Notes under the pieces: model-generated | The model's database searches: none | Seen by the model: the letters and a program-made list of their open reading frames with translations, nothing else | Told to the model about the DNA's origin: nothing | Translations under genes and position numbers: made by a program | NCBI GenBank assembly: GCA_003221455.1 | Contig: QHRX01000077.1 | Coordinates: 1 to 34,341 of the forward strand | Length of the DNA: 34,341 bases | Direction: 5' to 3' | Source: Candidatus Rokuibacteriota bacterium | Lineage (GTDB): Bacteria; Methylomirabilota; Methylomirabilia; Rokubacteriales; CSP1-6 | Shown: piece by piece, positions 10,963 through 31,409 of the stretch | Layout of the letters: every line of letters starts with the position of its first letter | How positions within the stretch are numbered: the first letter of the stretch is position 1

Positions 10963-11679
10963 CTACTTGGTGGCGATCAAGACCAGGCGCGGCGCGTCGA
11001 AGGCGAACGGCGAGCCGTCGAGGCTGCCGTGGAGATCGACGCGCCGCCAGCGCTCCGGGCGCAACATCGCGCGCAGCTCGTGGGCCGCGTACAGGCGGAA
11101 CTCGGTCTCGCCGAGGCGCTGGCCATCGTCCACCCGGTGCCAGACGCCGCGGACGCGGCTCGTCTCCGGGTCGAAGGTGTTCTCGATTCGCAGCCCGGCC
11201 ACGATCTCCTCGGCCGTCACGTGACGGATGAAGTGGTCGCGGTTGCGCGTGTCGAGCACGAACGTGCCACCGGGTGCGAGCGCCCGCCAGAAGCGGTCGA
11301 GCAGGAGCCGGTCTTCGTCGTCCGAGAAGTACCCAATGCTGCTGAAGAGGTTCACGGCGAGGTCGAACTCGCCCGAGAACTCCATATCTCGCATGTCTTG
11401 GCAGAGGAAGGTGCCATCGACCCGGGCGGCGGCGACGGCGGCGCGGGCGCGATCGAGCTCGGTCTCACTGAAGTCGACGCCCGTCACGCGATAGCCGCGG
11501 CGGGCAAACGCCACCGAGTGACGGCCGAAGCCGCACGGCGCGTCGAGCACGCGCCCGCCGTCGGGAAGCTTGACGTTGGCGACGATCCAGGCCACCGCGG
11601 CCTCCGGATCGTCCGCGGACTCGAAATCCTGCGAGATCGTGGGCCATGCTTCCCGGAAGAACCGCTCGCTCGGAAACAC
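10963..11679 (-). CDS. Class I SAM-dependent methyltransferase
   Basis: This 238-residue protein has the Rossmann-type methyltransferase signature VLDAPCGFGRHS (motif I), VTGVDFSE with the acidic residue of strand 2, and a later FDLAVNLFSSIGYF and ALAPGGTFVLDTRN. The DAPCGFGRHS wording is common among small-molecule methyltransferases. The substrate cannot be told. The start is GTG at 11679, placed six bases after a perfect TATAAT, which would give a leaderless message. Reading frames that extend further right cross the epimerase gene in antisense. It diverges from the epimerase and probably shares a transcript with the 2-hydroxyacid dehydrogenase. Confidence 0.88.
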   Translation of the reverse strand: MFPSERFFREAWPTISQDFESADDPEAAVAWIVANVKLPDGGRVLDAPCGFGRHSVAFARRGYRVTGVDFSETELDRARAAVAAARVDGTFLCQDMRDMEFSGEFDLAVNLFSSIGYFSDDEDRLLLDRFWRALAPGGTFVLDTRNRDHFIRHVTAEEIVAGLRIENTFDPETSRVRGVWHRVDDGQRLGETEFRLYAAHELRAMLRPERWRRVDLHGSLDGSPFAFDAPRLVLIATK

Positions 11680-11685
11680 GGCGCG

Positions 11686-11693
11686 ATTATAAT
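11686..11693. promoter_or_regulatory. Palindromic -10 box shared by two divergent, leaderless genes
   Basis: ATTATAAT is its own reverse complement and contains TATAAT on both strands (plus 11688-11693, minus 11691-11686). The plus-strand box ends seven bases before the ATG at 11701. The minus-strand box ends six bases before the GTG at 11679. The whole gap between the two starts is 21 bases. No -35 box or ribosome site is seen on either side. Confidence 0.65.
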
Positions 11694-11700
11694 ACGCCGC

Positions 11701-12678
11701 ATGACGACATTGGTGACGGGCGCGTTCGGCTGCATCGGGTCGTGGGTGATCCGCGGGCTGCTTGCCGCCGGCGAGCGACCGCTGGCCTTCGACTTCGCCG
11801 ACGATCCCTGGCGGCTCCGGATGGTCGCCGGTCCGGACGTGATGAGCCGCATCGCGTTCGTCCGCGGCGACATCGCCGAGAAGGATCAGCTCGTGAAGGC
11901 GATTGGCGACCACCGGGTCACGCGCGTGATCCACCTCGCCGCCTGGCAGGTCCCGCTCTGCCGTCAGGACCCGGCCCGGGGCGCGCTGATCAACGTCGTG
12001 GGCACCGCCAACGTGTTCGAGGCGGTCCGGGCCTGCCCCGGGCAGATCGGGCGCGTCGTCTACGTGTCCTCCGCCGGCGTGTTCGGTCCCCCGCACCTCT
12101 ACCCGTCCGGGCCGCTCGCCGACGACGCCCCCCCGCGGCCCGCGACGCACTACGGTGTCTACAAGGTCGCCAACGAGGAGACGGCGCGGGTCTGCTGGGA
12201 GGAGCACCGGATCCCGTCCTCCGGGTTCCGCCCGCTCTCGGTCTACGGCCCGGGCCGCGACTTCGGCGTGACGGCGGCGCCGACGCTCGCCATGAAGGCG
12301 GCGGTGCTCGGCCGACCCTTTCGGATCCCGTACGGGGGTCGGACCGACCTGATCTTCGTGGAAGACGTCGCGAACGCGCTCCTGACCGCGGCGAGCGCCG
12401 CGCTCGATGGCGCCCGCGTGTACAACCTCCACGGCGAGGCGGTGGCAATCGCCGACTTCGTGCGGCGGCTCCACACGCTCTGGCCGGGTGCCCAGGGTCT
12501 CGTCGGGCACGACGAAGTGCCCACGCCGTTCGCCGAGGCGCTGGACGACGCGCGATACCAGCGCGACTTCGGCCCGCGCCCCCGGACGTCGCTGGGCGAT
12601 GGCGCCCGCCGGACGCTCGAGGAGTTCGCACGGCTTCGGACGGAAGGACGGCTCGACGCGCGCGAGCTCGGCGTCTGA
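11701..12678 (+). CDS. NAD-dependent epimerase/dehydratase (extended SDR)
   Basis: This 325-residue protein is an extended short-chain dehydrogenase acting on a nucleotide sugar or similar substrate. The cofactor motif TGAFGCIG is at residues 6-13, followed by the strand-2 acidic residue (FDF), HLAAW, the catalytic serine in YVSSAGVFG, and the YxxxK pair in HYGVYK. FRPLSVYGPGRD and RTDLIFVEDVANA are typical later motifs. The substrate is unknown. The ATG at 11701 sits seven bases after TATAAT, and no ribosome site is present. The next gene starts two bases after the stop, so a plus-strand operon with the GNAT and ABC genes is likely. Confidence 0.9.
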   Translation: MTTLVTGAFGCIGSWVIRGLLAAGERPLAFDFADDPWRLRMVAGPDVMSRIAFVRGDIAEKDQLVKAIGDHRVTRVIHLAAWQVPLCRQDPARGALINVVGTANVFEAVRACPGQIGRVVYVSSAGVFGPPHLYPSGPLADDAPPRPATHYGVYKVANEETARVCWEEHRIPSSGFRPLSVYGPGRDFGVTAAPTLAMKAAVLGRPFRIPYGGRTDLIFVEDVANALLTAASAALDGARVYNLHGEAVAIADFVRRLHTLWPGAQGLVGHDEVPTPFAEALDDARYQRDFGPRPRTSLGDGARRTLEEFARLRTEGRLDARELGV

Positions 12679-12680
12679 CC

Positions 12681-13172
12681 GTGGACCTCCCCATCCGCCC
12701 GGCGGCGCCCGACGACGCCGGCGCGATCTGCCGCATCTACAACCAGGGGATCGAGGACCGCGGCGCCACCCTGGAGACCGAGCTCCGGACCCCCGAGGAA
12801 CGCCGGCAATGGCTGGCCAGGCGCGAGACGCGCCATCCGGTCATCGTGGCCGAGGAGGACGGCGAGGTCGTCGCCTGGGGGAGCCTCAACGCGTTCAGCC
12901 CGCGGGCCAGCTACCGCTTCGTCGCCGACTTCTCGATCTACGTCGAGCGCGGCCGGCGCGGTAAGGGCATCGGCCGCCAGCTCCTGGCCCGGCTCGTCGA
13001 GCTCGCCCGCGGGCACGGCTATCACAAGCTGGTGCTCGCCACCCTGCCCGGGAACGCGGCGGGGCTCCGGCTCTACGAGGCGTTCGGCTTCCGCACGGTC
13101 GGCGTGTACCGGGAGCAGGGCCAGGTCGACGGCCGGTGGGTGGACACGGTCATCATGGAGAAGCTCCTCTGA
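12681..13172 (+). CDS. GNAT family N-acetyltransferase (phosphinothricin acetyltransferase-like)
   Basis: This 163-residue protein has the full GNAT fold of the Pat/MddA group, which acetylates amino groups of amino-acid analogues such as phosphinothricin or methionine sulfoximine. Typical are IYNQGIEDRGATLET near the start, WGSLNAFSPRASYR, the acetyl-CoA loop RGRRGKGIGRQLL, and NAAGLRLYEAFGFRTVGVYREQG near the end. The start is GTG at 12681, two bases after the epimerase stop. Its natural substrate cannot be read from sequence. A detoxifying role is known for relatives. Confidence 0.9.
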   Translation: MDLPIRPAAPDDAGAICRIYNQGIEDRGATLETELRTPEERRQWLARRETRHPVIVAEEDGEVVAWGSLNAFSPRASYRFVADFSIYVERGRRGKGIGRQLLARLVELARGHGYHKLVLATLPGNAAGLRLYEAFGFRTVGVYREQGQVDGRWVDTVIMEKLL

Positions 13173-29527: not shown

Positions 29528-30409
29528 CTAGTTCCACATGTAGAGGCGCGGGTTCACCGAGTGGCCCTTGACGATGATCTCGTAGTGCAGGTGCGGACCG
29601 GAGGACTTGCCGGTGTTCCCGGTGAGCGCGATCAACTGCCCGCGCACCACCTGCTGCCCGGGCGCGACCAGCAGCTTCGACAAGTGCCCGTAGATGGTCC
29701 GAATGTCGTGGCCGTGCTCGAGGATCAGGCAGAGCCCGAACTCGCCCTGCTCCCCCGCAAACACGACGGTGCCCGGCGCCGGGGCGTGGACGCCCGCACC
29801 GCGATCGGCGGCGATGTCGAGCCCGCTGTGGAACTCCTCCGCCCCCGTCCACGGCGAGGGGCGGGTGCCAAATTCCGAGTTGACGGCGCCGCGCACGGGC
29901 CAGCGCGACGGCATGAGCGCGAGCGCCTTGCCGGCATGCTCCATCAGCCGCTCAAGCGCCCGGAGGTTCTGGCCCGCCTCGCCGACCGTCTCGGCGAGCC
30001 CGTCAAGCTCCTCGAGCGCTGACGGCTTGTGCCCGGCGGGTTCGGGCAGCGCCGTGGCACCACCGATCCCCGGAGTCCTCCGCACGAGCCCGACGTCGGG
30101 GCCGAACGGTTCCCAGATCTTCGCGTCGAGCTCGCGCCAAGAACCAACCTCGAGCCGGATCTCGGCGATCCGCTTCCGGAGGGCGGTGACGATCCCGTGT
30201 TGTTCGGCGAGCTCGCGCTGCAAGGCGGCGGGGCTGGCGGCCAATTTCCGCACGCGGATGTAGTCGCCGACGAGCACGGACACGGTGGTGAACCCGAGCG
30301 TCACCACCACGACGGCGGCCGAGACCGCCCACCCCGGCAGGTGCACGCGCACCGGCCGGGACCCGTCGCTCGAGACGATGAAGATGTTGAGCCGTCGAGC
30401 GCGGCTCAC
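29528..30409 (-). CDS. M23 family metallopeptidase (LytM-type) with N-terminal membrane anchor
   Basis: This 293-residue zinc peptidase cuts peptidoglycan cross-bridges or stems. It has a short cytoplasmic lead, a membrane helix at about 26-48 (WAVSAAVVVVTLGFTTVSVL), a coiled-coil-like stretch (about 58-100, EQHGIVTALRKRIAEIR), and the M23 domain from about 170. The zinc ligands are His194 and Asp198 (HSGLD) and His275, with His273 in PHLHYE. The domain is complete. It starts four bases after the bactofilin stop. Bactofilin and M23 genes are often paired in shape-control loci (for example CcmA and Csd1 in Helicobacter), so a role in local wall remodelling is likely. Confidence 0.93.
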   Translation of the reverse strand: MSRARRLNIFIVSSDGSRPVRVHLPGWAVSAAVVVVTLGFTTVSVLVGDYIRVRKLAASPAALQRELAEQHGIVTALRKRIAEIRLEVGSWRELDAKIWEPFGPDVGLVRRTPGIGGATALPEPAGHKPSALEELDGLAETVGEAGQNLRALERLMEHAGKALALMPSRWPVRGAVNSEFGTRPSPWTGAEEFHSGLDIAADRGAGVHAPAPGTVVFAGEQGEFGLCLILEHGHDIRTIYGHLSKLLVAPGQQVVRGQLIALTGNTGKSSGPHLHYEIIVKGHSVNPRLYMWN

Positions 30410-30413
30410 TAAC

Positions 30414-30821
30414 TCACCGCTTCAAGGCCACCAGTGTGCTGTCGGCGGGCGTGGAGCCGGCGGGCTTTGCGCTGGTCATCCGGCAGTGTCCGTCGAAGAG
30501 CACGCCCTCCGCGACCACCACGACGGGGGCTTCGACGTCACCGAAGACGCGCGCGCCCTCCTTGAGCTCGACCCGATCACTGGCGACGACGTTCCCCACC
30601 AGCTCGCCGCTGACGATCAGCGTGCCGGCGCGGACGTTAGCGTTGACGACCCCCTTCTCGCCGATGATCAGCGTGTCGACGGACGCGATCTCGCCGTGGA
30701 ACTTGCCGTTCAGCATCACGGTGCCGCTGAACGTGTACTTGCCCTCGATCTCCGAACCCTCGTCGATAAACGCGCTCAGGTCGTTGCGCGCCGCCATCGC
30801 CTTCCGGGTCTTTCGCCACAT
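30414..30821 (-). CDS. Bactofilin (polymer-forming cytoskeletal protein), copy 1
   Basis: This 135-residue protein is a bactofilin: a short flexible lead, then a right-handed beta-helix of repeated hydrophobic turns (LSAFIDEGSEIEGKYTF, GKFHGEIASVDTLIIGEKGVV, then NANVRAGTLIVSGELVGNVV), then a polar tail. Bactofilins polymerise on the inner membrane and recruit wall enzymes. It lies 18 bases after the second bactofilin and four bases before the M23 gene. IIGEKGVVNANV is shared almost word for word with its neighbour, showing a tandem duplication. Confidence 0.93.
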   Translation of the reverse strand: MWRKTRKAMAARNDLSAFIDEGSEIEGKYTFSGTVMLNGKFHGEIASVDTLIIGEKGVVNANVRAGTLIVSGELVGNVVASDRVELKEGARVFGDVEAPVVVVAEGVLFDGHCRMTSAKPAGSTPADSTLVALKR

Positions 30822-30839
30822 CGTCCGTATCGCGCGCGG

Positions 30840-31298
30840 CTAGGCCTGCGCGCCGACCCGCTTGTCCTCGACGAGGTAGACGGGCAGCTTCGCCTGGCGC
30901 CCGCCCGGCTTCACGACGTTGCCGCTGAAGGACCCGCCCTTGGAGATGACGAGCGAGTCCGTCTCGATGTTGCCGTTCACCCGTCCGGTGGCGGTGATCT
31001 CGACGGTACCGGTCGCCACCATCGTGCCCTCGTACGCTCCCCGGATGATGGCGTCGACGGTCTGCACGTTCGCGTTCACCACGCCCTTCTCGCCGATTAC
31101 GAGCTGCCCTCCGACGTTCAATTCGCCGCCGACCTCGCACTCGATGTGTATGGAATCGGCGACCTCGAATTTCCCGTCCATCTTCGCGGTGGCGCCGACG
31201 ACCGTGAGCAAGGTCACCGGGGTGGCGGGGCGGCGCTCATCCGGCGCGGACGACCCAACCGCCATCGCCGGTCTCGAAGCTCTCGAACGACCGAGCAT
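30840..31298 (-). CDS. Bactofilin (polymer-forming cytoskeletal protein), copy 2
   Basis: This 152-residue bactofilin is the first gene of the envelope operon. After a polar lead (about 1-30) the beta-helix runs from VTLLTVVGATAKMDGKFEV to SFSGNVVKPGG, with VIGEKGVVNANVQTVDAIIRG in the middle. The end carries a short tail (YLVEDKRVGAQA). I chose the ATG at 31298 because a perfect GAGGAGG lies six to seven bases upstream. An alternative start at 31319 adds seven residues and would include the ribosome site. A probable promoter lies 110 bases upstream. Confidence 0.93.
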   Translation of the reverse strand: MLGRSRASRPAMAVGSSAPDERRPATPVTLLTVVGATAKMDGKFEVADSIHIECEVGGELNVGGQLVIGEKGVVNANVQTVDAIIRGAYEGTMVATGTVEITATGRVNGNIETDSLVISKGGSFSGNVVKPGGRQAKLPVYLVEDKRVGAQA

Positions 31299-31409
31299 CC
31301 GCGCCTCCTCAAGACCCACGTTCGCTAGTCGGTGCGGACACGCCAGGGGGAGTGCGCCCCCGGGCAGGTACTGCCGTCATTGGGCGCCGCCGGAATGTAG
31401 CCTCTTTCC

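Follow-up and report, generated by a model that had tools for sequence, protein, structure and literature searches.

A putative bidirectional -10 box shared by two divergent, probably leaderless genes in Candidatus Rokubacteria

Introduction

Bidirectional promoters that arise from the symmetry of the -10 element were described by Warman et al. (2021, Nat Microbiol 6:746) and are presented further in PMC10268837 and PMC12825309. They are defined by start sites lying 7-25 bp apart (PMC10268837) and fall into separation classes of 10, 18 and 23 bp, of which the 18-bp class is the commonest (PMC12825309). For five such promoters of Escherichia coli, the two directions did not compete at basal activity and did so only under strong activation (PMC12825309). 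A second described system is that of the leaderless genes, for which a TANNNT motif about 12 bp upstream of the start is the mark in other bacteria (PMC3160421; for Deinococcus, PMC12340547). The word 'leaderless' appears neither in PMC10268837 nor in PMC12825309, the words 'divergent' and 'bidirectional' do not appear in the Deinococcus paper (PMC12340547), and our literature search found no paper naming Rokubacteria and leaderless genes together.

The locus analysed here has features of both systems. Like Warman-type promoters, as far as they are presented in the sources above, it has two predicted -10 elements that overlap on opposite strands and a position between divergent mRNA genes, where such promoters may lie; its start sites are expected within the 7-25 bp range (21-23 bp here, i.e. 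near the 23-bp class), and steric exclusion of polymerases is likewise to be expected. It differs from them, within the same limits, in that both mRNAs are predicted to be leaderless, so that the promoter core forms much of the intergenic region, and in that the offset of 2 bp (ANTATANT) is not that of the commonest 18-bp class. As in the leaderless genes of Deinococcus-Thermus and Actinobacteria (PMC12340547, PMC3160421), TANNNT lies just upstream of the start, a Shine-Dalgarno (SD) sequence is absent and a clear -35 element is not needed; those two papers treat single genes, whereas here one element would serve two genes, in Rokubacteria. Bidirectional promoters themselves being known, what would be new is a doubly leaderless one.

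Results

The shared box and the genes on either side

Candidatus Rokubacteria, to which the named closest relatives of the epimerase assign the genome, are soil and groundwater bacteria. The features of the locus are listed in Table 1, with positions counted in the window, i.e. the whole stretch of 34,341 nucleotides that was analysed.

Table 1. Positions of the shared box, of the genes around it and of a second divergent pair
Feature	Position	Strand	Remarks
Class I SAM-dependent methyltransferase (Methyltransf_25), 238 aa, GTG start	10963..11679	-	Pfam; predicted to be leaderless, with transcription from 11679 or close by
NAD-dependent epimerase/dehydratase (extended SDR), 325 aa, ATG start	11701..12678	+	Pfam; predicted to be leaderless, with transcription from 11701 or close by
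GNAT-type acetyltransferase, probable second gene of the + operon	12681..13172	+	named by eye from the translation
Intergenic gap, 21 bp	11680..11700		nothing but the promoter core, flanked by GC-rich stretches of 6 and 7 nt
Shared core ATTATAAT, two putative -10 hexamers	11686..11693	both	4-bp overlap, offset 2
Putative epimerase -10, TATAAT	11688..11693	+	7 nt (ACGCCGC), then ATG 11701
Putative methyltransferase -10, TATAAT	11686..11691	-	6 nt (CGCGCC), then GTG 11679
Core of the SUMF1-like/aminotransferase pair	G000:C318:3375-3402 (L130), also L129, L131		3/3 genomes of the window's genus

The 8-bp core sits in the middle of the gap. The first T of its hexamers is 12 nt (methyltransferase) and 13 nt (epimerase) upstream of the respective starts, and the start codons are 22 bp apart, or 23 bp in relatives with a 22-bp gap. 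ATTATAAT was seen once in the window against 0.01 expected and is present in a single copy in the 4.41-Mb genome; TATAAT was counted twice in the window, both times in the core (0.19 expected from shuffles). There is no SD motif anywhere in the 21-bp gap. The positions where a -35 element would stand (spacers of 16-18 bp) give 1-3 matches out of 6 on either side, nothing recognisable, and with no more than 3 of 6 on both sides the strength of the promoter is unproven. The first-pass annotation had reported TATAAT on both strands at these distances from the GTG and the ATG, a 21-base gap and no ribosome site for either gene; the sequence agrees on every count.

Both starts are backed by orthologs, which have an RTG in the same codon position or close to it and concordant protein N-termini. 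Over positions 10963-12678, both frames stay open well past the true starts, as frames of 515 and 549 aa that reach into the gene opposite, so that automatic gene calling could readily carry either start over the promoter. Elsewhere in the window (29528-31319, - strand), two adjacent bactofilin-like genes lie beside an M23-peptidase-like gene, all named by eye from their translations.

Leaderless signal in the genome and in the family

Leaderless genes are, on the pattern counts that follow, general in this genome and in its family. When the genome was searched for TATAAT followed by RTG, independently of gene calling, the distance between the two peaked at 6-7 nt, which accounted for 18 of the 68 sites found over the 25 spacings from 0 to 24. 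A count over 57 genomes of the family gave 225 TATAAT-N7-ATG sites versus 12 for the reversed control, and 65 TATAAT-N13-ATG sites versus 10. The signal corresponds to the TANNNT mark of leaderless genes described in other bacteria (PMC3160421, PMC12340547).

Conservation of the box

The search of related genomes for the core and the gap that had been suggested with the first annotation turned up the shared layout in 19 genomes (genera g1, g5, g9, g15 and g19), with a gap of 21-22 bp; these genomes are mutually related and most of them are draft MAGs. Their core reads ATTATA(A/T/G)T, the offset between the overlapping -10s being fixed at 2 bp. Of the eight core columns, seven show no variation, unlike those of the flanks. 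The one variable column (position 7: A, T or G) corresponds to -8 of the epimerase hexamer and falls outside the methyltransferase hexamer; the mirror position, which belongs to the methyltransferase hexamer, is constant in the 19 genomes. The -8 position of a -10 hexamer is weakly specified, and T-12, A-11 and T-7 of the + hexamer are constant in 19/19. The perfect palindrome, which was how the box had first been described, is confined to the window's genus, and the relatives carry ATTATATT or ATTATAGT. With variation restricted to the epimerase hexamer, the comparison indicates that the conserved object is two predicted -10 elements overlapping by 4 bp, rather than a palindrome.

Shared and separate layouts

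Each gene also has a promoter signal of its own among the relatives. The methyltransferase orthologs have a TATAAT-like hexamer near the start in 39/39 cases (TACAAT in two), at a distance of mostly 6-9 nt and of 11 nt in one genus; in genus g20, the probable GTG lies a few bases downstream of the start that the script assigned. TANNNT precedes the start by 6-9 nt in 23 out of 29 epimerase orthologs, against a background of 1.4% of all RTG triplets, and five of the six without it have an SD match. None of the shared-box epimerase orthologs has an SD motif. It appears that the epimerase gene is SD-led or leaderless depending on the genus.

A longer gap (45-231 bp), with a separate -10 for each gene, is found in several genera. 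In these long-gap relatives, the box is resolved into two -10s, each at an almost unchanged distance from its start. Three states are found among the relatives: long-gap and SD-led, two separate leaderless promoters, or a single shared box.

The leaderless epimerases without a shared box have in common an extended -10, i.e. TGn before TAnnnT (often TATSGT), in 12/12 cases, at 7-9 nt from the start (L024, L028, L031 and others). TGn precedes none of the shared epimerase promoters. By inspection, it could not, since its G would displace the A needed by T-7 of the methyltransferase hexamer. Sharing would then amount, from the geometry, to swapping an extended -10 for a near-consensus hexamer.

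The box after loss of the epimerase

Five genomes (G010, G020, G062, G063 and G064) have no intact epimerase, and in them the box and the start codon persist before the GNAT gene; the + direction appears to have been preserved after loss of the original gene. In G010, where the epimerase is absent, an intact shared box is followed by the first codons (MTTL) with the acetyltransferase fused to them in frame, and in G020 the acetyltransferase begins directly behind the box. In G062, G063 and G064 (L134, L135 and L146), the former leaderless start codon opens remnant epimerase frames of 12 or 37 codons, which enter the acetyltransferase gene. Translational coupling is possible where such frames run into the acetyltransferase.

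Recurrence in the family

The divergent pattern CAY-N7-ANTATANT-N7-RTG was found 20 times in the family versus 3 for the control, and its N6/N7 version 15 times versus 1; many of the matches are orthologous, so these counts are not independent. The rest of the phylum showed no enrichment, with 2 matches of the pattern versus 5 of the control. Within the family, seven unrelated divergent pairs with long frames on both sides match the pattern. One of the seven joins a thioredoxin-like protein and an FAD-linked oxidase (G011 and G080). Another is present in all three genomes of the window's genus, where the genes of a SUMF1-like (sulfatase-modifying-factor-like) protein and of a class I/II aminotransferase diverge from an overlapping -10 core, AGTATAAT (Table 1).

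The maximum-likelihood tree of the methyltransferase requires six changes between shared and not shared, four of them forced by well-supported branches; the count is that of one gene's tree, and gains are not distinguishable from losses in it. Within those limits, the changes make a single ancestral origin of the shared box doubtful.

Discussion

The box is very probably a bidirectional housekeeping (sigma-70-type) promoter giving two leaderless mRNAs. The case is built from sequence: the geometry of the gap, the conservation of the core, the genome-wide leaderless signal and the retention of the box after loss of the epimerase. RNA polymerase would bind in either orientation to one of the two opposite-strand -10 hexamers, which overlap by 4 bp in the core ANTATANT. 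We infer that transcription starts, in each orientation, on the initial base of the start codon or beside it, which puts some 22 bp between the two sites, one on each strand; with starts so placed, both mRNAs would be leaderless and a ribosome-binding site unnecessary. Two features of such systems are seen in the sequence, i.e. overlapping -10 hexamers on the two strands, conserved and of predicted function, and TANNNT about 12 bp upstream of starts that have no SD. The two orientations could not be occupied simultaneously. Since the -35s are poor on both sides, occupancy is expected to be low and competition weak, and the two genes are probably transcribed in parallel and not exclusively. A further promoter may exist inside either coding sequence, alongside the shared box. 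The central proposal of the first-pass annotation, that one box acts as the -10 of two divergent genes lacking SD sequences and probably leaderless, is supported by the conservation of core and gap.

The same annotation had added that only one polymerase could use the box at a time and that the two operons may be mutually exclusive, as a simple built-in switch. A polymerase shuts out the other only for as long as it stays bound. In favour of a switch, where competition at the single box would alternate the two operons, a shared -10 does entail steric exclusion, both hexamers are near-consensus, and in E. coli one direction is repressed when the other is strongly activated (PMC12825309). However, basal activity was too low for competition at all five E. 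coli bidirectional promoters tested (PMC12825309). Neither side of the box has a recognisable -35, and no feedback loop or memory element was seen. In addition, relatives drive the same pair of genes from two separate promoters, which implies that exclusivity is not a conserved requirement. The switch is not supported and is, in our view, very unlikely.

Two other readings concern what the box is for. It could be used by the methyltransferase alone, the epimerase being read from a promoter inside the methyltransferase gene and the + hexamer being a by-product of near-symmetry: the methyltransferase hexamer is indeed the more strictly conserved (39/39), and the near-symmetry of TATAAT does yield incidental reverse hexamers. 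Such a by-product would not account for the constancy of T-12, A-11 and T-7 of the + hexamer in 19/19 genomes, T-7 lying outside the methyltransferase hexamer, nor for the TANNNT found 7-9 nt from the start of epimerase orthologs that have their own promoter. A leadered transcript would have no SD, and the box still stands before the GNAT gene where the epimerase has been lost. This makes use by the methyltransferase alone very unlikely indeed. An operator for a dimeric regulator of both genes, and not primarily a promoter, would fit a perfect palindrome sited between divergent genes, as in the window's genus. Eight bases is short for it, and the separation of the box into one -10 per gene in long-gap relatives, with start distances nearly unchanged, speaks against it. 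Variation outside the methyltransferase hexamer with a fixed mirror position is predicted by overlapping -10s, not by a symmetric operator; as the symmetry is not conserved, the palindromic operator was rejected and the chance of it is slight in the extreme.

Coming back to the bidirectional promoter, a broader and rather doubtful idea is that leaderless pairs of this family have repeatedly dropped separate promoters for one selected -10 core, and kept it even when one gene was lost and replaced, as the choice of orientation would fix the ratio of the two outputs or lower noise. Sharing would bar the TG extended -10 of unshared relatives, each fusion forcing a change of promoter type.

To conclude, the pair would be a near-minimal divergent arrangement, with one 8-bp promoter core and zero 5' untranslated region on either side. 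With relatives in three promoter states, the evolution and the cost of a bidirectional promoter are open to study as a natural series. More generally, leaderless genes appear to be widespread in Rokubacteria, which bears on the calling of starts in uncultured genomes.
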